Assembly: GCA_030706635.1 (NCBI GenBank)
Contig: JAUZOD010000005.1
Coordinates: 62,001-126,000 of the forward strand
DNA: 64,000 nucleotides
Direction of reading: 5' to 3'
DNA from: Bacteroidota bacterium
GTDB lineage: Bacteria; Bacteroidota; Bacteroidia; Chitinophagales; Chitinophagaceae
This document shows positions 37,036 to 49,488 of this stretch, in pieces (within the stretch, counting starts at the first letter, position 1; every line of letters starts with the position of its first letter). The notes under the pieces were generated by a model. It ran no database searches. It had not been told where the DNA came from and saw nothing but the letters and a program-made list of their open reading frames with translations. The position numbers were made by a program, and so were the translations under genes.

Positions 37036-39033
<1,998 letters not shown>

Positions 39034-39095: not shown

Positions 39096-39153
39096 AAAAC
39101 TGTCTTTTTTGCAGATTTTTTTGAGTGTTTTCACCCAAAAAAATGACAGTTTT
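39096..39153 (+). promoter_or_regulatory. Inverted repeat upstream of AraC-type gene (candidate operator)
   Basis: AAAACTGTC (39096-39104) and GACAGTTTT (39145-39153) are reverse complements about 40 bases apart, with T- and A-rich extensions. The right arm includes AAATGACAGT (39141-39150), the reverse complement of ACTGTCATTT found between hemA and hemH. It lies about 60-115 bases upstream of the -7 box at 39212. Autoregulation by the AraC-type protein is inferred. Confidence 0.45.
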
Positions 39154-39211
39154 ATGATGCTTATGGCCCTCTGAATCAGTTTTTGGGTATTGCCGGGCTG
39201 TGTTTCTGCTG

Positions 39212-39229: not shown

Positions 39230-40171
39230 ATGCATCAACCCCCCGACATACTTTCCCTGGCCTATAAACAACCGGTTATGCATCATGCCCTTGATCTTAT
39301 TCAGGAGAAAGAGCGTCAGATTCCCGGGTCTGTTCAGTATGTAATCCAGCGTTATCATAAGAATCCGCAATGGAATCTGGATGACCTGGGCATGATGACC
39401 TACCATTATCAAAAAGACAAACCCAGGGAGAACTACTTCGAATTGCGGTTTTGTATTGCCGGGAATGTTTACTGTAAGCAGAAAGACAGGGAATGCGATT
39501 CCTGCCGGTTGAATGTTTCCCGTTACTGTCAGGAGCGGATCGAGACGGTGGATGTGCTGAGTTTCCGGTTTTCTTCCGTTCATCTTTCCCAATTTGTGAG
39601 ATCAGAACAGGTAGCGGGCTCACTCACGGATAATGTACTCAATTTCAAACACCCTTCTTCCTTCTCGAAAATATTATCCCTTTGCAGCCGCATCAGGACG
39701 CTGCTGGAAGCAGTATTGAACCATACCTATACTGACAGCCTCGAAAATATATACATCAATGCGCAAACCCAGATGCTACTGCTATACAGCCTGGAGTGCA
39801 TGCTGGGGGAAAAAGAGGTGGAAGCCTTCCAATGCAAATTCCTGGCCAATGAAGGCGACCGTGAAAAAATTACGATGGCCAGAAAGATCCTCCTGGATCA
39901 TATCGGCGAACCCCTCACCATCCGCGAACTCAGCCGAAAAGTAGCCATCAACGAATGTTACCTCAAGAAAGGGTTCAAAGAGCTATTCGGCACCACCATC
40001 TTCGATTTCTACCAGAGCCAGCGTATGGAACACGCCCGCTATCTTTTATACGAAAAAGGGCTTAGTGTCACGGAGGTCTCCATTATGCTGGGCTATTCCT
40101 CCATCTCTCATTTTTCCACTGCTTTCAAAAAGCATACGGGGCTGAAGCCTTGTGAGTTATTGCTCCATTAA
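39230..40171 (+). CDS. AraC-family regulator with N-terminal cysteine cluster
   Basis: The 313-residue protein ends in an AraC-type DNA-binding domain (about 215-310: LTIRELSRKVAINECYLKKGFKELFG, then YEKGLSVTEVSIMLGYSSISHFSTAFKKHTGLKP). Its N-terminal half holds five cysteines, C75, C82, C89, C92 and C100 (C-x6-C-x6-C-x2-C-x7-C), a spacing that could bind a metal, an iron-sulfur cluster or haem. Together with the haem genes next to it, this suggests control of haem synthesis. That role is inferred, although the shared operator-like words at 39141 and 47697 support it. It is followed by a heptad stem-loop and convergent hemL. Confidence 0.85.
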   Translation: MHQPPDILSLAYKQPVMHHALDLIQEKERQIPGSVQYVIQRYHKNPQWNLDDLGMMTYHYQKDKPRENYFELRFCIAGNVYCKQKDRECDSCRLNVSRYCQERIETVDVLSFRFSSVHLSQFVRSEQVAGSLTDNVLNFKHPSSFSKILSLCSRIRTLLEAVLNHTYTDSLENIYINAQTQMLLLYSLECMLGEKEVEAFQCKFLANEGDREKITMARKILLDHIGEPLTIRELSRKVAINECYLKKGFKELFGTTIFDFYQSQRMEHARYLLYEKGLSVTEVSIMLGYSSISHFSTAFKKHTGLKPCELLLH

Positions 40172-40178
40172 TTTCATT

Positions 40179-40284
40179 GTTGACGGTTGACAGTTGACCG
40201 ACTCAGGTGCAACTCGTCAACAACAGGCTAACGCCATTCAGTTATTAACCTTCACCTAAAGTCTGTCAACCGTCAACTGTCAAC
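40179..40284. repeat. Heptad-unit inverted repeat between AraC-type gene and hemL
   Basis: The left arm (40179-40203) carries GTTGACG, GTTGACA and GTTGACC units; the right arm (40260-40284) is its near-perfect complement. The centre differs from other copies (56 bases, containing TCAGGTGCAACTCGTC). The hemL stop (40273-40275) and its last residues VDS lie within the right arm. Confidence 0.75.
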
Positions 40285-41556
40285 GAAACTCTCTGCTGCC
40301 TCAATCGTTTCATCCAGGTCCCGGAAACTGAGCGCATTGTTCAGGAACCAGCTTTCAAAAGGAGAGGGCGGAAGATAAATTCCCTGATCCAGGAGGGAAT
40401 GAAAGAATTTTTTAAACTGGTCTGTGTTGCCGTCGGAAGCAGTTGCAAAATCTTTTACTGGATGATCACAAAAATGAACGCTGATCATTGATGCGTACTG
40501 GTTGATCACAAAAGGAAATCCTTTTTGCTGCAGCGCTTTTTGTAATCCTTCTTTCAGATAGGTTGTCTTTTGTTCGAGTTCAGCAAAGATCTTTGGGTTT
40601 CCCTTTAATACTTTTAACGTCGTTAATCCTGCAATCATGGCAATGGGATTTCCACTAAGTGTTCCCGCCTGATATACTTTACCGGCCGGGGCGATGTGTT
40701 CCATGATTTCCCTGCGGCCACCGAATGCGCCTACAGGCATCCCGCCGCCAATCACTTTTCCATAGGTCACCAGGTCTGCCCGGATACCCAGTTTTTCCTG
40801 CGCACCTCCCGGAGCCAGCCGGAAGCCGGTCATCACTTCATCAAAGATCAGCAGCATATTTTCCGTATCACAGAGGGATCTTAATTCTTCCAGGAATCCT
40901 TTTTCAGGAAGGACACAGCCCATGTTGCCTGCTACCGGTTCAACGATGATGGCCGCGATGTTTCCGCGGTGTTGTTTTACCAGTCGGGTAACCGCTTCCG
41001 GATCATTGAATGGACAGGTAAGGGTGTCCTGGGCCACACCGGCCGTTATACCGGGTACCGTTTGTATATCTAAAGTGGCGACACCACTTCCGGCTTTCAC
41101 GAGAAAGGCATCGGCATGCCCGTGGTAATGGCCTTCAAATTTGATAAACTTATTTTTTCCGGTAAACCCCCTGGCCAGCCGGATTGCGCTCATACAGGCT
41201 TCTGTTCCGCTGCTCACCATGCGGATCAGATCCACATGGGGAACCATACTGATGATCAGCTCGGCCATTTCCACTTCCAGTTCGGTAGGCGCCCCATAAG
41301 AAGTGGAATTGGCAACCCTGTCCCGGATCGCCTGAATAACGGGTTCATATGCATGCCCGAGAATCATTGGCCCCCAGGAAGCAATATAATCGATGTATTT
41401 ATTGCCATCAGCATCGTAAAGGTAGGCGCCTTTGGCCCTGCTAATGAAAAGCGGCGTGCCGCCAACACTTTTAAAGGCTCGCACCGGCGAATTCACCCCT
41501 CCGGGAATGGACCTCCGGGCCCTGGCGAAAAGCTGTTCACTTAGAGTTGTCTCCAT
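40273..41556 (-). CDS. hemL: Glutamate-1-semialdehyde 2,1-aminomutase
   Basis: HemL moves the amino group of glutamate-1-semialdehyde to give 5-aminolevulinate, using PLP. The 427-residue protein has the PLP lysine K267 in VTYGKVIGGGMPVGAFGG, plus SSGTEACMSAIRLARGFTG and EGHYHGHADAFL. It forms the C5 pathway with HemA, encoded at the other end of this block. It is the last gene of the leftward haem run. Its C-terminal codons are formed by the inverted repeat. Confidence 0.97.
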   Translation of the reverse strand: METTLSEQLFARARRSIPGGVNSPVRAFKSVGGTPLFISRAKGAYLYDADGNKYIDYIASWGPMILGHAYEPVIQAIRDRVANSTSYGAPTELEVEMAELIISMVPHVDLIRMVSSGTEACMSAIRLARGFTGKNKFIKFEGHYHGHADAFLVKAGSGVATLDIQTVPGITAGVAQDTLTCPFNDPEAVTRLVKQHRGNIAAIIVEPVAGNMGCVLPEKGFLEELRSLCDTENMLLIFDEVMTGFRLAPGGAQEKLGIRADLVTYGKVIGGGMPVGAFGGRREIMEHIAPAGKVYQAGTLSGNPIAMIAGLTTLKVLKGNPKIFAELEQKTTYLKEGLQKALQQKGFPFVINQYASMISVHFCDHPVKDFATASDGNTDQFKKFFHSLLDQGIYLPPSPFESWFLNNALSFRDLDETIEAAESFVDS

Positions 41557-41634: not shown

Positions 41635-42606
41635 TCAGTTCTCCAGCAATTTCACGGCATCTCGTGCGAAATAAGTAGCAATTAAATCGGCGCCGGCTCT
41701 TTTCATGGACGTGAGGGTTTCCAGGATCGCTTTATGCTCATCCAGCCAGCCCATTTTGGCTGCGGCCTTGATCATGGCATATTCGCCGCTGATATTGTAA
41801 GCACTAACGGGAACGCGCACGGCATTTTTCACTTCGCGGATGATATCCAGGTAGGCAAGCGCGGGTTTTACCATCACGATGTCCGCGCCTTCCGCCACGT
41901 CCTGCAGAGCCTCTTTTACTGCTTCCGTGCGATTGGCATAGTCCATTTGATAGGTTTTTTTATCACCGAATCCGGGAGAAGAATCCAGGGCATCCCGGAA
42001 AGGACCGTAGAAACAGGACGCATATTTTGCACTGTAGGCCATGATGCCCGTTTTGGTAAATCCGTTTTTTTCAAAGGCCGTTCTTATGGCGCCGATCCTG
42101 CCGTCCATCATATCGCTTGGGGCTACAAAGTCTGCCCCGGCCTCTGCATGACTCAGGCTCATCTTTACCAGCGCTTCCACGGTTTCATCATTTACAATCT
42201 CCCCGTCTTTTACAATGCCATCGTGACCATAAGAAGAATAGGGATCAAGCGCCACATCGGTCATGATCAGTATTTCAGGAACCGCATCTTTAATTGCGCG
42301 GATACTCTTTTGCATAAGGCCTTCTTTATTCCAGGCTTCCTTTCCCGTATTGTCCTTCAATTCATCTTTGCACTTGATGAATAGCAAAATACTTTTCAAT
42401 CCCATGCTATAAAGTTCTTTCACTTCACTGACCGTCACGTCCAGGCTGTTCCGGTAATATCCCGGCATGGATTTAATCTCCGTTCTTACCTGTCTGCCCT
42501 CGTCAATGAAAAGGGGTACAATGAAATCATTGGCGGAAAGAGTGGTTTCGGCAACCAAACTCCGGATGGATGGATTTGCTCTTAATATTCTGCTTCGGGT
42601 GCGCAT
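41635..42606 (-). CDS. hemB: Delta-aminolevulinic acid dehydratase (porphobilinogen synthase)
   Basis: HemB joins two 5-aminolevulinate molecules into porphobilinogen. The 323-residue protein has two active-site lysines (in MAYSAKYASCFYGPFRD and MVKPALAYLD). The region that carries three zinc-binding cysteines in E. coli reads DVALDPYSSYGHDG here, so the enzyme is predicted to be of the type without active-site zinc, probably magnesium-dependent. The ATG at 42606 (MRTRSRILRANPSIR) is chosen over an upstream TTG. hemL follows after 78 bases. Confidence 0.96.
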   Translation of the reverse strand: MRTRSRILRANPSIRSLVAETTLSANDFIVPLFIDEGRQVRTEIKSMPGYYRNSLDVTVSEVKELYSMGLKSILLFIKCKDELKDNTGKEAWNKEGLMQKSIRAIKDAVPEILIMTDVALDPYSSYGHDGIVKDGEIVNDETVEALVKMSLSHAEAGADFVAPSDMMDGRIGAIRTAFEKNGFTKTGIMAYSAKYASCFYGPFRDALDSSPGFGDKKTYQMDYANRTEAVKEALQDVAEGADIVMVKPALAYLDIIREVKNAVRVPVSAYNISGEYAMIKAAAKMGWLDEHKAILETLTSMKRAGADLIATYFARDAVKLLEN

Positions 42607-42686: not shown

Positions 42687-42716
42687 CATTGTCCATTGTT
42701 AACTCTCCATTGTTAA
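42687..42716. repeat. Heptad array after hemF (single orientation)
   Basis: CATTGTC, CATTGTT, AACTCTC and CATTGTT run head to tail; the hemF stop (42713-42715) is at the edge. Unlike the other members there is no facing inverted array, so it cannot form the long stem by itself. Confidence 0.6.
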
Positions 42717-43663
42717 ACCCACTCCTTCGGCTTCAAACAAACCTGCAGCAATTCGTCTTCCCTGCTCCCCGGGTCGGGATGATGGTCATATACCCATCGG
42801 GCGCGGGGCGGGAGGCTCATTAAAATACTTTCTATCCTTCCCTTTGTTTTTAATCCGAACAAAGTTCCGCGGTCATGAATGAGATTAAACTCCACATATC
42901 TGCCCCTTCTGATTTCCTGCCAGAAGGTTTCTTTTTCTCCATAGGGATTGTCCTTTCTTTTCTGAACGATGGGAAGGTAAGCTTCCAGAAAAGTATCGCC
43001 GTTTAGCTGCTGGAACCTGAACAGGTCTTCAGCATGGGCTTCGCTGCCGGGCCTGAGATGGTCATAGAATATACCTCCTATGCCGCGCGTTTCCTTATCG
43101 CGGTGGGTATTGGAAAAATAGTCATCGCAGTTTTTTTTGTACCGGGGGTACAGATCCGGGTCAAAGGAATCCAATGCTTTTTTCAGGGTCCCGTGAAAAT
43201 GCCGGGCATCTTCTTCAAATAAATAATATGGCGTAAGATCGGCACCTCCGCCAAACCACCTGTCTTTTATATATCCTCCCCCATCATATAATTCAAAAAA
43301 ACGCCAGTTGGCGTGAACCGTGGGCACGTAAGGGTTCAAGGGATGAATGACCAGGGAAAGTCCGCAGGCGAACCAGGAATCACCGTCCATCTGCAGTTGC
43401 TTTCGCATGGCATCTGTTACCTGGCCAAAGACCACCGATGTATTTACACCGGCTTTTTCAATTACAGCACCCATGTCCATCACCCGGGTTCTTCCGCCAC
43501 CACCTTTTCCGGCCGCCCGTTCCCAATCATCTGTTTTGAATACGGCCTTCCCATCGAGTTTTCCCAGTGCAGCACAGATTGTATCCTGCAAACCATAGAT
43601 GTACTCAATCCACCGGCTTCTGAATTCTTTTGTTGTTGTCTTATTTAAAAGCGGAGCATCCAT
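42713..43663 (-). CDS. hemF: Oxygen-dependent coproporphyrinogen III oxidase
   Basis: HemF uses molecular oxygen to convert coproporphyrinogen III to protoporphyrinogen IX. The 316-residue protein has the family core: WERAAGKGGGGRTRVMDMG, NPYVPTVHANWRFFE, WWFGGGADLTPYY-like text (RWFGGGADLTPYYLFEEDA), RGIGGIFYDHL and GRYVEFNLIHDRGTLFGLKTKGRIESILMSLPP. Its presence implies aerobic haem synthesis; no hemN is in the window. It starts 15 bases after hemE on the same strand. Confidence 0.97.
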   Translation of the reverse strand: MDAPLLNKTTTKEFRSRWIEYIYGLQDTICAALGKLDGKAVFKTDDWERAAGKGGGGRTRVMDMGAVIEKAGVNTSVVFGQVTDAMRKQLQMDGDSWFACGLSLVIHPLNPYVPTVHANWRFFELYDGGGYIKDRWFGGGADLTPYYLFEEDARHFHGTLKKALDSFDPDLYPRYKKNCDDYFSNTHRDKETRGIGGIFYDHLRPGSEAHAEDLFRFQQLNGDTFLEAYLPIVQKRKDNPYGEKETFWQEIRRGRYVEFNLIHDRGTLFGLKTKGRIESILMSLPPRARWVYDHHPDPGSREDELLQVCLKPKEWV

Positions 43664-43678
43664 AACAGACTTTTGTTT

Positions 43679-44731
43679 TCACAATGAGCTTTTTTCAAAG
43701 TCGTTTTGATAGGAATGACTTTTAACCGCATCTACAAATGCTTTGGCATGATCCACGGGCACGTTCGGCAGAATGCCATGACCCAGGTTGGCGATATGCC
43801 GGCGAGGACCAAAATCGTTCAGCATCCGGGTGACCTGTTTTTTCAATTCCGGAATCGGCGTAAGCAAACGTGCCGGATCAAAATTTCCCTGCAGAGTCAC
43901 CTGATGGCCCGCAAACGCCCGCGCCGTATCCGGCCGGATGCACCAATCCACACCGATGCCTGCAGTACCGGTTGCGGCCATTTCCGCCAGGGAATGCCAG
44001 GCGCCTTTGGCAAATAAGATGGTTGGGACCTCCTGTTTCAAAGCAAGAATGATCTGGCGCATGTATTGTAAAGAAAAAATTTCAAAGTCATCCGGACCCA
44101 GCAAGCCGCCCCAGCTGTCAAACAACTGAACTACATCGGCTCCGGCTTTTACCTGTTGCCGGAGATAGGCAATGGTTGTATCTGTAAGCATTTGCAGAAG
44201 CTGATGTGCGAGTACGGGCTGGGTATAACAAAAGGATTTCGTCAGGTCAAACGTCTTGGATCCTTTACCATCCACCATATAACAGAGCAGGGTCCAGGGG
44301 GCGCCCGCAAATCCGATCAGGGGTACACGCCCATTCAGTTCCTGCTTCACCAGGCGTATGGCCTCGAAAACATAACCCAGGGACGCTTCCACGTTTGGCA
44401 CAAAAACCCGTCGGGCATCGGCTTCGGTTCTTACCGGTGCCGGCAACACCGGACCCGTATTTTCAATCAGTTGTACTTCAAGCCCCATGGCCTGCAGTAC
44501 AACGAGGATGTCAGAGAAAAGAATGGCCGCGTCCACTCCGATCTGATCTACAGGCTGTAGCGTAATCTCGGTTGCCAGTGCCGGTGTTTGCACCCGGTCA
44601 AAAAATGAATATTTATCCCGCAGCTTCCGGTAGTCTGGCAGATAACGGCCTGCCTGCCGCATCATCCATACTGGTGCGCGTTCCGTTTTTTCTCCTGCGA
44701 GGGTTCTCAGCAATAAGTTATTTTTCAGCAT
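43679..44731 (-). CDS. hemE: Uroporphyrinogen decarboxylase
   Basis: HemE removes four carboxyl groups from uroporphyrinogen III to give coproporphyrinogen III. The 350-residue protein has the signature [16 protein letters not shown] near the start, then [27 protein letters not shown] and [17 protein letters not shown], and ends with [19 protein letters not shown]. Its start overlaps the end of hemD by 7 bases, indicating coupled translation within the haem operon. Confidence 0.97.
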
Positions 44732-45456
44732 GTTGATGATATCGGGTGTGACCGGCCATAGTCAATGGCCATTTTTAAAAGAGATTTTTTATCGGGGTTG
44801 GGGCAGATCAGCAACTCATTGTTGGAGAAACTTCGAAGGATTTGGGCCGTTGTTTCCCCCAACGCAAATAAAACGGTCCGGCGCGGAATGCTGTTTATGG
44901 AAAAAAAACTGGTTACGGCCGTCGGACTAAAAAATAATATGGCATCAAAATCTTTTTCCAATTGCACCGGCGTCGCGCATGTTCGGTAAACAACAAGTTC
45001 CTGCAGGTGAATCCCGTGTTCATTTAATTTATCGGGCAATACGTCTCTGCGCTGATCTCCGCAGAAGAAAACGGCCCGCCTGACCTGGTCCTGAATTATT
45101 TTACCGGAAAGTTCCTCTGCATTTTTTGCTGTGCTTAGGATCGCCGCCTCGCCAAAAAAAGAAACGATCTGTTTTCTGGTCACGCTACCTACAGCATATA
45201 TTCCCCAATCCGGCCTGCGATGGATAAAGGCTGACACCGCCTTCACTGCATTGGCGCTGGTAAAAACAACAACCTGCGTTTGGCCGGCGAACGACATCAC
45301 CTCATTGCGGGTATGCTCATCCGAATTCAAAGTAATTTGAATGAAGGGAATTTCTTCAACCACAACGGAAAGCGGATAATTTCCTTTTTCAGCCGTCCGG
45401 TTTTCATCCGCTGACGCTGATCCGGTGGATAATATCGTAAAGGGCCTGTCAGGCAT
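44725..45456 (-). CDS. hemD: Uroporphyrinogen-III synthase
   Basis: HemD closes hydroxymethylbilane into uroporphyrinogen III with inversion of ring D. HemD proteins are poorly conserved; this 243-residue one is recognised by its two-domain Rossmann-like layout, motifs such as [15 protein letters not shown] and [14 protein letters not shown], and its position between hemC and hemE. The end of hemC overlaps its start by 8 bases and its end overlaps hemE by 7. Confidence 0.9.
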
Positions 45457-46369
45457 GTTTTATTTCCTTCAGTATGGCCATTCCGCCTTCTTCTAGCAGT
45501 TCGCGCGCTGCGGAAGTGCCAAGGGATGCCGCCAGCTCCAGGGAGATCCGTTTCTCGATAGTCACTTGCTTTTTCCCGTCGGTGCTGGTAAGATTTCCCT
45601 GAAAAAGCAGTTCTTCATTTTCAATTTCTGCGAGCGCACCTACCGGCGTTGAGCAGCCTCCCATGAGTGCGGATAAAAAATCTCTTTCAATATGGGCGCA
45701 GAATGCAGTGCGTTCATCATGAAGTTTTGCACAGGAGCTGAGCAGCGGCTCATCGTTTTCGCGACAAACGACCAACAAGGCACCCTGAGCCGGGGCGGGA
45801 AGCATCCAGCTCAGTTCGATGGCATTCTGCGGGCGAAGGCCGATCCGTTCCAGGCCGGCTGCGGCAAAAATGGCTCCGCTCCAGTTGCTTTCAGCCAGTT
45901 TTTTCAGTCGGGTATTCACGTTCCCGCGAATAGGTGCTATGCTGTCCTGCGGAAAACGGTGCAGCCATTGCGATCTTCGCCGGAGGCTGCTCGAACCAAT
46001 CAAAGCAGGGCGGTGGTCTTCTAGGAAAGTATTTTCGAGTTGCTGCCGGGGAGCGAGCAAATCATAGGGATTGTCTCTTTCCGGAACGGCGGCTTCTACT
46101 ATTCCTTTGGGAAGCTGAACCGGCACATCCTTCATGGAATGTACAGCAAGATCTATCTGATTATTCAGCAGAGCCTGATCCAGGCTGCGGGTAAATATGC
46201 CCTGAACGCCCATGGCATATAAAGGCGTGGTCAGATCGAGATCGCCCTCGCTCTTTACAGGCACGAGTACAGTGTTTATGCCGGATTTCTTTAGCAGATG
46301 CTGAATCCGCGTTGCCTGCCACAAAGCGAGCTGACTATCCCTGGTGCCGATCCGGTATGTTATTGACAT
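45449..46369 (-). CDS. hemC: Porphobilinogen deaminase (hydroxymethylbilane synthase)
   Basis: HemC polymerises four porphobilinogens on a dipyrromethane cofactor. The 306-residue protein has the cofactor cysteine C239 in LMGGCSTPVGALAEI, the substrate-binding HSMKDVPVQLP, and GSSSLRRRSQ. The ATG of MSITYRIGTRDSQLALWQ is the start, 11 bases after the hemA stop; the longer upstream frame is antisense-like and overlaps hemA. Its TGA lies inside the hemD ATG region, an 8-base overlap. Confidence 0.96.
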   Translation of the reverse strand: MSITYRIGTRDSQLALWQATRIQHLLKKSGINTVLVPVKSEGDLDLTTPLYAMGVQGIFTRSLDQALLNNQIDLAVHSMKDVPVQLPKGIVEAAVPERDNPYDLLAPRQQLENTFLEDHRPALIGSSSLRRRSQWLHRFPQDSIAPIRGNVNTRLKKLAESNWSGAIFAAAGLERIGLRPQNAIELSWMLPAPAQGALLVVCRENDEPLLSSCAKLHDERTAFCAHIERDFLSALMGGCSTPVGALAEIENEELLFQGNLTSTDGKKQVTIEKRISLELAASLGTSAARELLEEGGMAILKEIKHA

Positions 46370-46380
46370 GATAGACTGGT

Positions 46381-47613
46381 TTATCCTGCAGCGATAAACT
46401 CGTTGATTGCCTGAATATACTGGCAACCCCGCTGATTTTCGTGGCGCATCTTTGAAGCCATGCCGTTCAATACACGCTGTATTTTTTGGTCTGCTGCGCT
46501 GGCCGGGGTCCGCGTAATGGAAGATTGTCCAAACAGCGGAGAACAGTAAATTTCCTGAAGTTTTATTTTCACTTCTCTTAAAACCGGAACGTGCTTGCGC
46601 ATTTCGTGCCAATCCAGCAATTCCCGCATGTGGCCGGCAATAATCACCTGCGCTTTAGGAATTTCAGCTGCGCGTTTCTGAAGGGTCTCATCTTTCATCC
46701 GCGAAAGACTATCCACGTCGATCAGCGTAATGAAGGGGAGTTCAGCAACCGCTTTATCTACATTGCAGGGAATGGACAGATCAATAAGGAGTTTATTTTC
46801 TTTGAATGGGGCCAGCTGGTCAACCGTAATGACCGGATCCGTTGCATTCGTAGCCACCAGAATAATGTCTGCCTTACCAATCTCTTCCGTCAGGTGATCC
46901 ATGGAGGCATGCCGTAAATGCAACAGGGAAGCCAGGTTTTCTGCTTTCTCGTTTGTCCTGTTAATCAGCGTGATGTTGGTGGTACCCAGATAATCCACCA
47001 TATTTTTACAGGCATTGCTGCCGATTTTACCTGTGCCGAGCAGGAGAATCTGTTTGTTCTTGATCTCCTGTATGTTTTCCCGGATATAATGTACAGCAGC
47101 AAAAGCAACGGAAACCGTACCGTCACTCAGGGTTGTTTGATTTTTTATCTCTTTGGAAGATTGCAAAACCTGGTTCAGGGTCCTTTCCAGAAAAATATGG
47201 ATGAACTCTCTTTCTTTTGCGAATTTCATGGCCTGGCGGATCTGACCAACAATTTCATAGTCCCCCAGAATCTGAGAATCCAACCCGGCTGCGACATCAA
47301 AAAGATGATGGATGGCTTTTAACCCCTGTTTGCAATACGCCAAGGCATTGAACACATCCGAGGTTCCTTCTGTCTGGGAACAAAAAAGCCGCACCAGCTG
47401 CTGGGCATTCTCTGCAATTCCGTAAATCTCTGAACGGTTGCAGGTAGATAAAACGAACAGATCCTGGACTCCGTAAAGAGATGCGTTTTGAAGTATTCGT
47501 TCGTACTGCTGGGATCCAATGGCAAATGAACCTCTGACCTTGGTATCAGTCTTTTTGTAGTTGATACCAACCACAAAAAATTTGGAAAGTTCAGTTACCG
47601 GATTCCTGCTCAT
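46381..47613 (-). CDS. hemA: Glutamyl-tRNA reductase
   Basis: HemA reduces glutamyl-tRNA to glutamate-1-semialdehyde, the first and usually controlled step of haem synthesis. The 410-residue protein has the active-site cysteine C58 in VLSTCNRSEIYG, then AAGLDSQILGDYEIVGQIRQA, and the NADPH-binding LLGTGKIGSNACKN. It heads the leftward hemACDEF-B-L run and is divergent from hemH. A TAGTTTTG box (minus, 47650-47657) lies 36 bases before the ATG. Three TGTC-type sites lie just behind it. Confidence 0.97.
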   Translation of the reverse strand: MSRNPVTELSKFFVVGINYKKTDTKVRGSFAIGSQQYERILQNASLYGVQDLFVLSTCNRSEIYGIAENAQQLVRLFCSQTEGTSDVFNALAYCKQGLKAIHHLFDVAAGLDSQILGDYEIVGQIRQAMKFAKEREFIHIFLERTLNQVLQSSKEIKNQTTLSDGTVSVAFAAVHYIRENIQEIKNKQILLLGTGKIGSNACKNMVDYLGTTNITLINRTNEKAENLASLLHLRHASMDHLTEEIGKADIILVATNATDPVITVDQLAPFKENKLLIDLSIPCNVDKAVAELPFITLIDVDSLSRMKDETLQKRAAEIPKAQVIIAGHMRELLDWHEMRKHVPVLREVKIKLQEIYCSPLFGQSSITRTPASAADQKIQRVLNGMASKMRHENQRGCQYIQAINEFIAAG

Positions 47614-47685: not shown

Positions 47686-47720
47686 AATGTCATAATACTG
47701 TCATTTGTAAAATGGACATT
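47686..47720. promoter_or_regulatory. Cluster of TGTC-type sites between hemA and hemH
   Basis: AATGTCAT (47686-47693), ACTGTCATTT (47697-47706) and the inverted AATGGACATT (47711-47720) are spaced about one helical turn apart. ACTGTCATTT recurs, inverted, at 39141-39150 upstream of the AraC-type gene. The sites are about 30-65 bases behind the hemA -7 box and 45-80 before that of hemH, a normal distance for AraC-type activators. Confidence 0.45.
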
Positions 47721-47775: not shown

Positions 47776-48795
47776 ATGGCCATTTCCAGAAAGGGTATCA
47801 TCTTAATGAACCTGGGTTCTCCGGATTCCGTATCGGTAAAAGATGTAAAAAAATATCTGAATGAATTCCTGTTCGACAAGCGGGTGATCGACTATTCCTG
47901 GTTGTTTCGTAAAATATTGGTTCAGGGGATCATAGTTCCGCGCCGTGCTCCGAAGTCGGCAGAAGCTTACCGGACCATCTGGACTGCTGAGGGTTCTCCC
48001 CTAATCTACTTAACTGATGAACTGGCAGCCCGTTTACAGGAACTTGTACCTTATCCGGTATCCATTTCCATGCGTTATGGAAATCCAACCATGGAGTCTG
48101 CCTATCAGGAGCTCCTGCAAAAAATGCCGGATCTGGAAGAAGTAACGGCGGTGCCCTTGTATCCGCATTATGCCATGTCTTCTTACGAAACTGCTGTGGA
48201 ACATGCAAAAGAAGTCCATCGCCGGAAAAAATACAAATTCAGGCTGAATTTCCTGCCGCCGGTTTTTGACCGGCCGGAATATATTCACGCCTTAACGGAG
48301 CATATACGACCCTGGCTGCAACGGGATTTTGATCATCTGTTGTTCAGTTTTCATGGCATTCCGGAAAGACATCTTGAAAAAACAGATCCAACCCATCAGC
48401 ATTGCCTCAGGTCGGCGGATTGCTGCTCGGTTGCATCACCCGCACATGCTACCTGTTACCGTCATCAGGGCCTGACCACCATGAATCTTGTTGCCGCAAA
48501 ACTGGATCTTCCGGAAGACAAATTCAGTTATTCTTTTCAGTCGCGTCTGGGGAGGGAAGAATGGCTGAAGCCCTATACCGATTATCGTTTTATGGAAATG
48601 CCGAAGGAGGGAATTAAGAAATTGCTGGTTATTTGTCCCGCCTTCGTAAGCGACTGCCTGGAAACCCTGGAAGAAATTGCCATCCGGGGTAAAAAGAGTT
48701 TTCTGAATTCCGGAGGAACCGATTTTGAAATGATTCCCTGTTTAAATACGAATCCGCTTTGGGTGAAAGCGCTGGCAGGGTGGGTGAAGGGTTGA
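47776..48795 (+). CDS. hemH: Ferrochelatase
   Basis: HemH inserts ferrous iron into protoporphyrin IX. The 339-residue protein has the catalytic H193 in LLFSFHGIPERH and the later CLETLEEI. Four cysteines sit close together in an internal segment, C210, C216, C217 and C227 (HCLRSADCCSVASPAHATCYRHQ region). A class of ferrochelatases from Myxococcus and other bacteria is reported to bind a [2Fe-2S] cluster in such an internal segment, so a cluster is likely here. The start is the ATG just after the -7 box. The TGA stop is part of a GTTGACG array. Confidence 0.95.
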   Translation: MAISRKGIILMNLGSPDSVSVKDVKKYLNEFLFDKRVIDYSWLFRKILVQGIIVPRRAPKSAEAYRTIWTAEGSPLIYLTDELAARLQELVPYPVSISMRYGNPTMESAYQELLQKMPDLEEVTAVPLYPHYAMSSYETAVEHAKEVHRRKKYKFRLNFLPPVFDRPEYIHALTEHIRPWLQRDFDHLLFSFHGIPERHLEKTDPTHQHCLRSADCCSVASPAHATCYRHQGLTTMNLVAAKLDLPEDKFSYSFQSRLGREEWLKPYTDYRFMEMPKEGIKKLLVICPAFVSDCLETLEEIAIRGKKSFLNSGGTDFEMIPCLNTNPLWVKALAGWVKG

Positions 48796-48957: not shown

Positions 48958-49488
48958 ATGTATTTATATATTAAGGCGCTGCATATTATTTTTATTGTCA
49001 CCTGGTTTAGCGGGATGTTTTACATCGTGCGCCTTTTCATTTATAACACGGAAGCGTCTGAGAAACCGGCGGCGGAGCGGGAAATTCTGCAACCACAGTT
49101 CCGCGTCATGATCAGGCGTTTATGGCTTGGAATCACCTGGCCTTCTGCTTTGCTCACCCTGATTTTCGGGCCCTGGATATGGTATATGCTGGGAACTACA
49201 CCTGCGTGGCTGGGGGTAAAACTGATATTTGTTATTTTGCTTTATCTCTATCATTTTTCTCTTCATCAGCTGTACCGGGAACAGATGCGGGGTATATTCC
49301 GTTTCAATTCTCAAAAACTACGCATCTGGAATGAACTGGCTACTGTCTTTCTGTTCGCGATTGTTTTTCTGGCGAGTGTTAAGCAGGCCCTGAGCTGGAT
49401 TGCCGGTGTTGTGGGAATCCTTTCGCTTGCTACAATGCTTATGCTGGCTATCCGGGTGTATAGGAAGTTGCGAAATAAAAAGGGTTGA
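48958..49488 (+). CDS. hemJ: Protoporphyrinogen IX oxidase, HemJ type
   Basis: HemJ oxidises protoporphyrinogen IX to protoporphyrin IX in the membrane, replacing HemG or HemY. The 176-residue protein has four or five membrane helices and the family start YLYIKALHIIFIVTWFSGMFYIVRLFIY, with the conserved early histidine (H9) and the W-F-x-G-x-F-Y-x-x-R-L pattern. Further helices lie at about 60-80, 90-108, 125-142 and 147-165. The ATG at 48958 is the family start. It completes the haem set and sits directly downstream of hemH. A terminator follows at 49552-49585. Confidence 0.9.
   Translation: MYLYIKALHIIFIVTWFSGMFYIVRLFIYNTEASEKPAAEREILQPQFRVMIRRLWLGITWPSALLTLIFGPWIWYMLGTTPAWLGVKLIFVILLYLYHFSLHQLYREQMRGIFRFNSQKLRIWNELATVFLFAIVFLASVKQALSWIAGVVGILSLATMLMLAIRVYRKLRNKKG

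Follow-up and report, generated by a model that had tools for sequence, protein, structure and literature searches.

AraC-type regulators of siderophore uptake include PchR, YbtA and AlcR, and for PchR and YbtA the ligand is a ferric siderophore. WhiB-like proteins are four-cysteine iron-sulfur regulators with the spacing C-xn-C-x2-C-x5-C, and Ada joins an N-terminal zinc domain to an AraC helix-turn-helix (HTH). To our knowledge, sensing by a four-cysteine iron-sulfur or metal loop is known from no AraC protein. The sequence-only reading of the present locus had supposed that a haem- or iron-sensing AraC protein of this kind was undescribed, and searches of open papers likewise showed no description of this regulator or of such sensing chemistry in an AraC protein, the nearest case being IurV (PMC7600106). 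In Vibrio cholerae, iurV is flanked by vctA and vctPDGC, and the expression of iron-uptake genes changes when it is deleted; the word cysteine is absent from the main text of that paper (PMC7600106). Knowledge of the Bacteroidetes iron response was called sparse in 2023 (PMC10434189).

Here we analysed an AraC-family regulator gene in a 64,000-nucleotide stretch of DNA, referred to as the window. The reading that we favour, with a probability of about one half, is a one-component AraC regulator that is tied to iron or haem supply and in which a four-cysteine site alters the DNA-binding half. The protein is a directly testable candidate sensor that is widespread in the Chitinophagaceae and often encoded beside genes for siderophore or haem uptake, ferritin or haem synthesis.

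The regulator and its place in the window

The regulator gene is an open reading frame (ORF) at 39230-40171 on the plus strand whose translation is an AraC-family protein of 313 residues, an assignment backed by PF12833 and by orthologues in the genus. HTH_18 (PF12833) matched residues 234-309 (39929-40156, plus strand) with an E-value of 7.7e-21 and 74.6 bits against a cut-off of 33.6, and HTH_AraC (PF00165) scored 49.5 bits against a cut-off of 26.6, placing the protein among those with the double HTH DNA-binding domain of the AraC/XylS family. Structural alignment of this domain with VIA-align returned AraC-type HTH structures with Z up to 14.5. Residues 1-233 had no covering Pfam match in a scan at E up to 1. 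Apart from HTH_18 and HTH_AraC, the scan gave a single sub-threshold match, to GST, and the Ada zinc domain was not found. For the N-terminal sensor half, residues 1-195 (39230-39814, plus strand), an AlphaFold2 model predicted a beta-rich domain followed by helices at 153-164 and 169-192.

Five cysteines had been reported within 26 residues of the sensor half, and C75, C82, C89, C92 and C100 do lie together at 39452-39529 on the plus strand. C75 (39452-39454) is in a predicted strand, residues 69-82, and the other four make up a loop, C82-x6-C89-x2-C92-x7-C100 (39473-39529), with codons at 39473-39475 (C82), 39494-39496 (C89), 39503-39505 (C92) and 39527-39529 (C100). The regulator was the sole protein with five cysteines in 26 residues among 46 non-overlapping ORFs of at least 150 residues in the window. 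Shuffled versions of the protein, which has 10 cysteines in 313 residues, reached the same density in 469 of 20,000 cases. Clustering within the regulator by itself is modestly unusual, and it is conservation that lifts the cluster above chance.

The gene had also been described as standing at one end of a complete haem set, and the haem neighbours are borne out. Its divergent neighbour is gyrB (37036-39015, minus strand; TIGR01059) and its convergent neighbour is hemL (40273-41556, minus strand; TIGR00713). Beyond hemL the minus strand carries hemB (41635-42606; NF006762), hemF (42713-43663; NF003727), hemE (43679-44731; TIGR01464), hemD (44725-45456; PF02602, HEM4), hemC (45449-46369; TIGR00212) and hemA, encoding glutamyl-tRNA reductase (46381-47613; TIGR01035). 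On the plus strand follow the ferrochelatase gene hemH (47776-48795; TIGR00109) and a hemJ-like gene (48958-49488; PF03653, UPF0093). The products of hemA, hemC, hemE, hemF, hemB, hemL and hemH exceeded their NCBIfam cut-offs, and HemD and the HemJ-like protein exceeded those of Pfam; against NCBIfam the HemJ-like protein was below cut-off (TIGR00701, E 7e-26, 91 bits with a cut-off of 138). No iron-uptake gene or TonB receptor gene adjoins the regulator gene in the window.

The four-cysteine loop

Conservation was assessed in 170 distinct homologues, left from 190 collected sequences (172 unique) after exclusion of L078 and L079. In the stretch aligned to residues 79-105, four cysteines were present in 162 of the 170, three in 3 and none in 5, in a collection found mostly through profiles and queries from cysteine-bearing members, which favours cysteine-bearing matches. 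The five homologues without cysteines had 8-16 residues in the aligned stretch, compared with 27 residues in 112 of the 170. The cysteines of the loop were spaced 6-2-7 in 104 of the 162 and 4-2-7 in 25, with 4-4-7, 15-2-7, 36-2-7 and others among the rarer spacings, and the remaining positions from 83 to 99 were at most 76% conserved. The loop cysteines are kept through changes in length, are nearly all-or-none and are lost together, a pattern that suggests one shared site and would be as expected for a single metal, iron-sulfur or disulfide site. Three or four conserved cysteines can hold one iron-sulfur cluster, and 162/170 have four in the loop, a feature that is necessary and not sufficient for an iron-sulfur regulator. 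C75 was kept in 167/170 and is separable from the loop because three of the five homologues that lost the loop retain it. The proposed five-cysteine unit therefore stands as to conservation and has to be redrawn as to extent, the actual unit being the four-cysteine loop C82-C100 with C75 separate in the preceding strand.

Within the genus, 18 of 24 genomes, our own included, have a full-length orthologue; the other 17 proteins are 73-90% identical, and the six genomes lacking an orthologue are 58-87% complete. C75, C82, C89 and C100 were invariant in these 18 proteins, and C92 was present in 17. Loss of the cysteines beside hem genes, which would have spoken against the sequence-only reading, was not the pattern seen, as 18/18 hem-linked loci keep all five; the exception is L007, a genus locus adjoining hemL, with Trp in place of C92. 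With a profile built from the N-terminal half, matches were obtained in 225 of 294 sampled Chitinophagaceae genomes. In a sample of 396 genomes of the class the same profile matched in 14, of which 12 were Chitinophagaceae; the two matches from other families were weak and covered residues 149-219 only, so that the loop was not seen outside the family in this sample. The matching records of a second collection bore titles indicative of the Chitinophagaceae, with Niastella, Puia, Terrimonas and Ferruginibacter among the genera named, apart from one titled Beijerinckiaceae.

We looked further at the 69 sampled family genomes with no match to the N-terminal domain, of which 20 were listed and 19 searched with a full-length profile (G111 was omitted). 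In 12 of the 19 (L299, L300, L302-L309, L312 and L313) the search found an orthologue that shares the DNA-binding half but lacks the loop, and in three (L310, L315 and L318) it found a form with CC near positions 151/152 and C-x2-C ending at 202. Of the rest, G053 had a fragment at a contig end that resembles the loop form, two had AraC proteins that were all more distant, and one had nothing. Genomes with no match to the N-terminal domain are thus not true absences, because the full-length profile found orthologues in most of them. The CC/CxxC form was also found in L311, from the same order, and in L078 and L079, from other families of the class. C152 (39683-39685, plus strand), C202 in a CKFL motif (39833-39835, plus strand) and C243 in the DNA-binding half were invariant over 18 alignment rows of all forms, loop-less relatives included, and among the 170 homologues C152 was present in 90.6% and C202 in 95.9%. 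More speculatively, C152 and C202, which are CC and CxxC in one related form, may represent an earlier site to which the loop was added later. Loop-less orthologues carried an extra cysteine, arranged as C-x4-C before the FL motif, in 10 of the 12 (not L307 or L308).

The AlphaFold2 model, built with 64 sequences, had a mean pLDDT of 83 and a pTM of 0.80. C75 and C82 are both in strand 69-82, and a further strand, 103-115, follows C100, so that the loop joins two strands. Loop residues 84-91 and 93-99 were below pLDDT 50 and their geometry was not predicted; accordingly, a preformed four-cysteine site was not seen in this model. Foldseek hits spanning the full chain were CsvR, Rns and ToxT, with an rmsd of about 14-17. 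VIA-align with residues 22-196 gave the AraC-type N-terminal domain of BgaR at Z 6.2, which is below the trusted level of the tool (rmsd 5.0-5.2 over 111-114 residues).

These results bear on whether the loop senses at all. It could instead hold a structural zinc, with a ligand such as a ferric siderophore bound elsewhere in the N-terminal domain. Four near-invariant cysteines lost together would fit a structural zinc equally well, the TonB receptors beside relatives of the gene fit siderophore-sensing AraC regulators, and the N-terminal domain weakly resembles ligand-binding AraC domains. However, the loop is predicted to be disordered, which is unusual for a structural site, and it is not needed for the family fold because 12 orthologues with the same DNA-binding half do without it. 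We consider a structural zinc unlikely and prefer a site whose state is sensed.

Iron and haem genes beside the regulator, and a repeat before hemA

The neighbourhood of the gene was examined in 60 loci, one per genome, hand-picked over the score range; 27 lower-scoring loci with short flanks (L140-L166) were not counted. Iron genes were found within 6 kb downstream in 21/60 loci and within 6 kb upstream in 1/60, a comparison in which the upstream flank cannot serve as a neutral reference, since gyrB or other conserved genes lie there, and which is given without a p-value as the loci are related. The downstream iron genes encoded TonB receptors (19), PepSY_TM proteins (5), HmuY (3), ferritin (3), FecCD (2) and a binding protein (1). 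Representatives were confirmed with Pfam or NCBIfam as a siderophore receptor (TIGR01783, above cut-off), HmuY, periplasmic binding protein, FecCD, PepSY_TM and ferritin. Genes of haem synthesis lay within 6 kb downstream in 18/60, iron or hem genes in 34/60 and both in 5/60; neither was found in 26/60, some of them clipped by contig ends. Among relatives that have the CC/CxxC form, four of six had a TonB receptor gene following the regulator on the same strand (L310, L315 and L318 in the same family, L079 in another).

Hem or iron genes were found at 0/12 of the loop-less loci, which were seen with 1.5-kb flanks. Loss of iron neighbours along with the loop was considered and rejected, because even among the 60 loop-bearing loci an iron gene begins within 1.8 kb in only about 16.

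The nature of these neighbours is also relevant to a redox switch, in which disulfides would form in the loop under oxidative stress and iron genes would be targeted because free iron drives oxidant damage. A cysteine-rich loop of low predicted order would suit such a switch, as would the ferritin neighbours in 3/60 loci, but a switch seldom needs exactly four cysteines, as found in 162/170, and the recurring neighbours counted were mainly uptake genes. We judge a redox switch to be quite improbable.

The place of the gene next to hemL may itself be a matter of inherited gene order. If the arrangement gyrB-araC-hemL was simply inherited, the regulator would not act on the hem genes, which is compatible with our favoured reading. 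The regulator gene is convergent to hemL, short flanks show gyrB in 18/18 genus loci and hemL in 13/18 (L007 among them), gyrB stands divergent to the regulator in 31 of the 60 loci, and 42/60 relatives have no hem gene within 6 kb downstream. Against inheritance as the whole account, different iron and haem genes occupy the same place in different lineages. We regard inherited order as a plausible explanation of the hem adjacency, held at somewhat short of even odds.

A HemA match (E 1e-20) was missing in 8 of 30 genomes that bear the regulator. These eight are near-complete family genomes (G296, G123, G148, G064, G056, G124, G287 and G317), and, judged by HemA as the single marker, the pattern hints at a loss of haem synthesis in them. 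Among the genomes with no HemA match, 7/8 had a TonB receptor of sequence cluster F7 in the fetched downstream flank; where HemA was matched, the count was 3/22 (Fisher p 0.0004, kinship ignored). The receptors grouped in F7 are mixed, and five of eight scanned members had an NCBIfam haem-receptor subfamily as best match, all below cut-off.

Gapped-dyad counting in 167 regions upstream of the regulator, with 580 control regions, found GTCA-N7-GTCA in 38/167 where 4.5 were expected; promoter-like dyads ranked above it and ATGA-1-TCAT close below. The repeat, GTCAY-N6-GTCAW in extended form, has a period of 11 bp and is rare in strict form. We built a matrix from sites at regulator promoters, to which the window contributed none, and set the threshold at the 1% level of 769 other genes. 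The best score in the 64-kb window (20.3) was in the divergent hemA/hemH interval at 47689-47708 on the plus strand. The second best (14.4) was in the promoter of the regulator itself at 39139-39158 on the minus strand, a near match, ATCAT-N6-GTCAT, with A for the first G. Sites above the 1% level were found upstream of 15/22 hemA, 11/16 hemH, 13/50 TonB-receptor and 1/9 ferritin genes, and upstream of 0/7 HmuY and 0/39 hemL genes. Enrichment at regulator promoters (42/125) and at gyrB (16/72, with which the interval is shared) is circular, as the same promoters trained the matrix.

Within the family the repeat stood before hemA at 22/24 loci of regulator-bearing genomes and at 11/12 loci from 20 genomes with no match to the N-terminal-domain profile. 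Outside the family it was present at 18/28 Bacteroidia hemA loci (L339-L343 and L345-L357), sampled as 28 of the 41 out-of-family genomes in which HemA was matched. A regulator-family match of at least 100 bits was missing from 16 of the 18 genomes with the repeat, and 8 of the 18 had no match at E 1e-12. In our own genome a loose form of the repeat was not enriched: it matched 16 times and the reversed control 23 times. At two out-of-family loci, L333 and L335, a related AraC gene (133 and 122 bits) is divergent from hemA and the repeat is missing there; a replacement of one hem control by another is possible in these cases.

A direct haem sensor acting on the hem genes through this repeat would account for the hem linkage in 18/60 loci, for the two best repeat scores of the window and for the frequency of the repeat before hemA and hemH. 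It is opposed by the repeat at hemA in out-of-family genomes, 16 of the 18 being free of a regulator match of at least 100 bits, by the counts in our own genome, and by the Cys-Pro haem motif, which is absent from residues 70-110 in 163/170 homologues and present in 7/170. We think a direct haem sensor very unlikely. The repeat was dropped as an operator of the regulator and as evidence of hem control, given its presence at hemA in regulator-less genomes, its absence at L333 and L335 and the lack of enrichment in our own genome. Because it also stands before hemA in Bacteroidia genomes with no regulator match, it probably serves another factor. It looks like a widespread haem operator and is probably an element of haem-related control in Bacteroidia to which that other factor binds, with the regulator gene probably among its targets in the Chitinophagaceae.

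The 12 out-of-family genomes scanned for strict sites gave nine, spread over eight genomes; six lie at hemA and a seventh precedes a c-type cytochrome gene. Sites before c-type cytochrome genes (cytochrome c and c7-type matches) occur in two distant genomes, at L261:933-952 in our own genome and at L389:1501-1515, and this gene may be the first of an alternative complex III operon. The repeat also resembles the Escherichia coli Pho box. A Pho box was rejected on the strict sites of these 12 genomes, given the six at hemA and the one at the c-type cytochrome gene; the other two are in or near genes that were not recognised as pho genes by eye.

Taken together, the link to haem and iron proposed from the sequence alone is borne out in the neighbourhoods of relatives, which hold both iron and haem genes, while a regulator specific to hem genes is disfavoured because the gene is convergent with hemL, hem linkage is confined to 18/60 loci, 8/30 regulator-bearing genomes lack a HemA match and the repeat before hemA occurs also in genomes with no regulator match.

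Proposed function and comparison with known systems

In the reading that we favour, a beta-rich N-terminal sensor domain would carry the four-cysteine loop between two strands in most Chitinophagaceae members. The four loop cysteines would jointly form a single site, with a bound metal or iron-sulfur cluster as the likeliest case and a thiol redox pair as the alternative. The state of this site would change the sensor domain and, through it, the DNA-binding half, and the regulator would in this way adjust adjacent genes, often those for a TonB-dependent receptor of ferric siderophores or haem and for accessory proteins of that receptor. The AraC DNA-binding domain, the conservation of the loop cysteines, their nearly all-or-none loss and the iron and haem neighbourhood in relatives are observed; the ligand, the sensing, the direction in which genes are regulated and, for the window, any control over its hem genes we infer. 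A wider proposal, which we put forward tentatively and consider doubtful, is a Bacteroidota branch of AraC proteins that would sense iron supply through a four-cysteine iron-sulfur or metal loop and link iron and haem uptake, iron storage and haem synthesis. If the loop does hold a metal or an iron-sulfur cluster, this would add a sensing chemistry for which the searches of open papers gave no precedent among AraC proteins.

The regulator shares with the AraC/XylS members ToxT, Rns, CsvR and BgaR the AraC DNA-binding half and perhaps, by Foldseek with large rmsd, the two-domain layout; unlike them it has a four-cysteine loop between strands and no N-terminal Pfam match. With Ada it has in common four cysteines in an AraC-HTH protein, but here the cysteines are in a loop of the sensor half, their spacing is different and there is no Pfam match to the Ada zinc domain. 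As in WhiB there are four cysteines, two of which usually form a C-x2-C pair, and the first spacing varies, whereas the DNA-binding domain is of the AraC type and the WhiB family did not appear in the Pfam scan. The likeness to PchR, YbtA, AlcR and IurV is that of an AraC gene beside one for a TonB-dependent receptor, an arrangement seen in 19/60 relatives (within 6 kb downstream) and not in the window. In contrast to these siderophore-uptake regulators, the neighbouring place is occupied here by various receptors, by hem genes and by ferritin.
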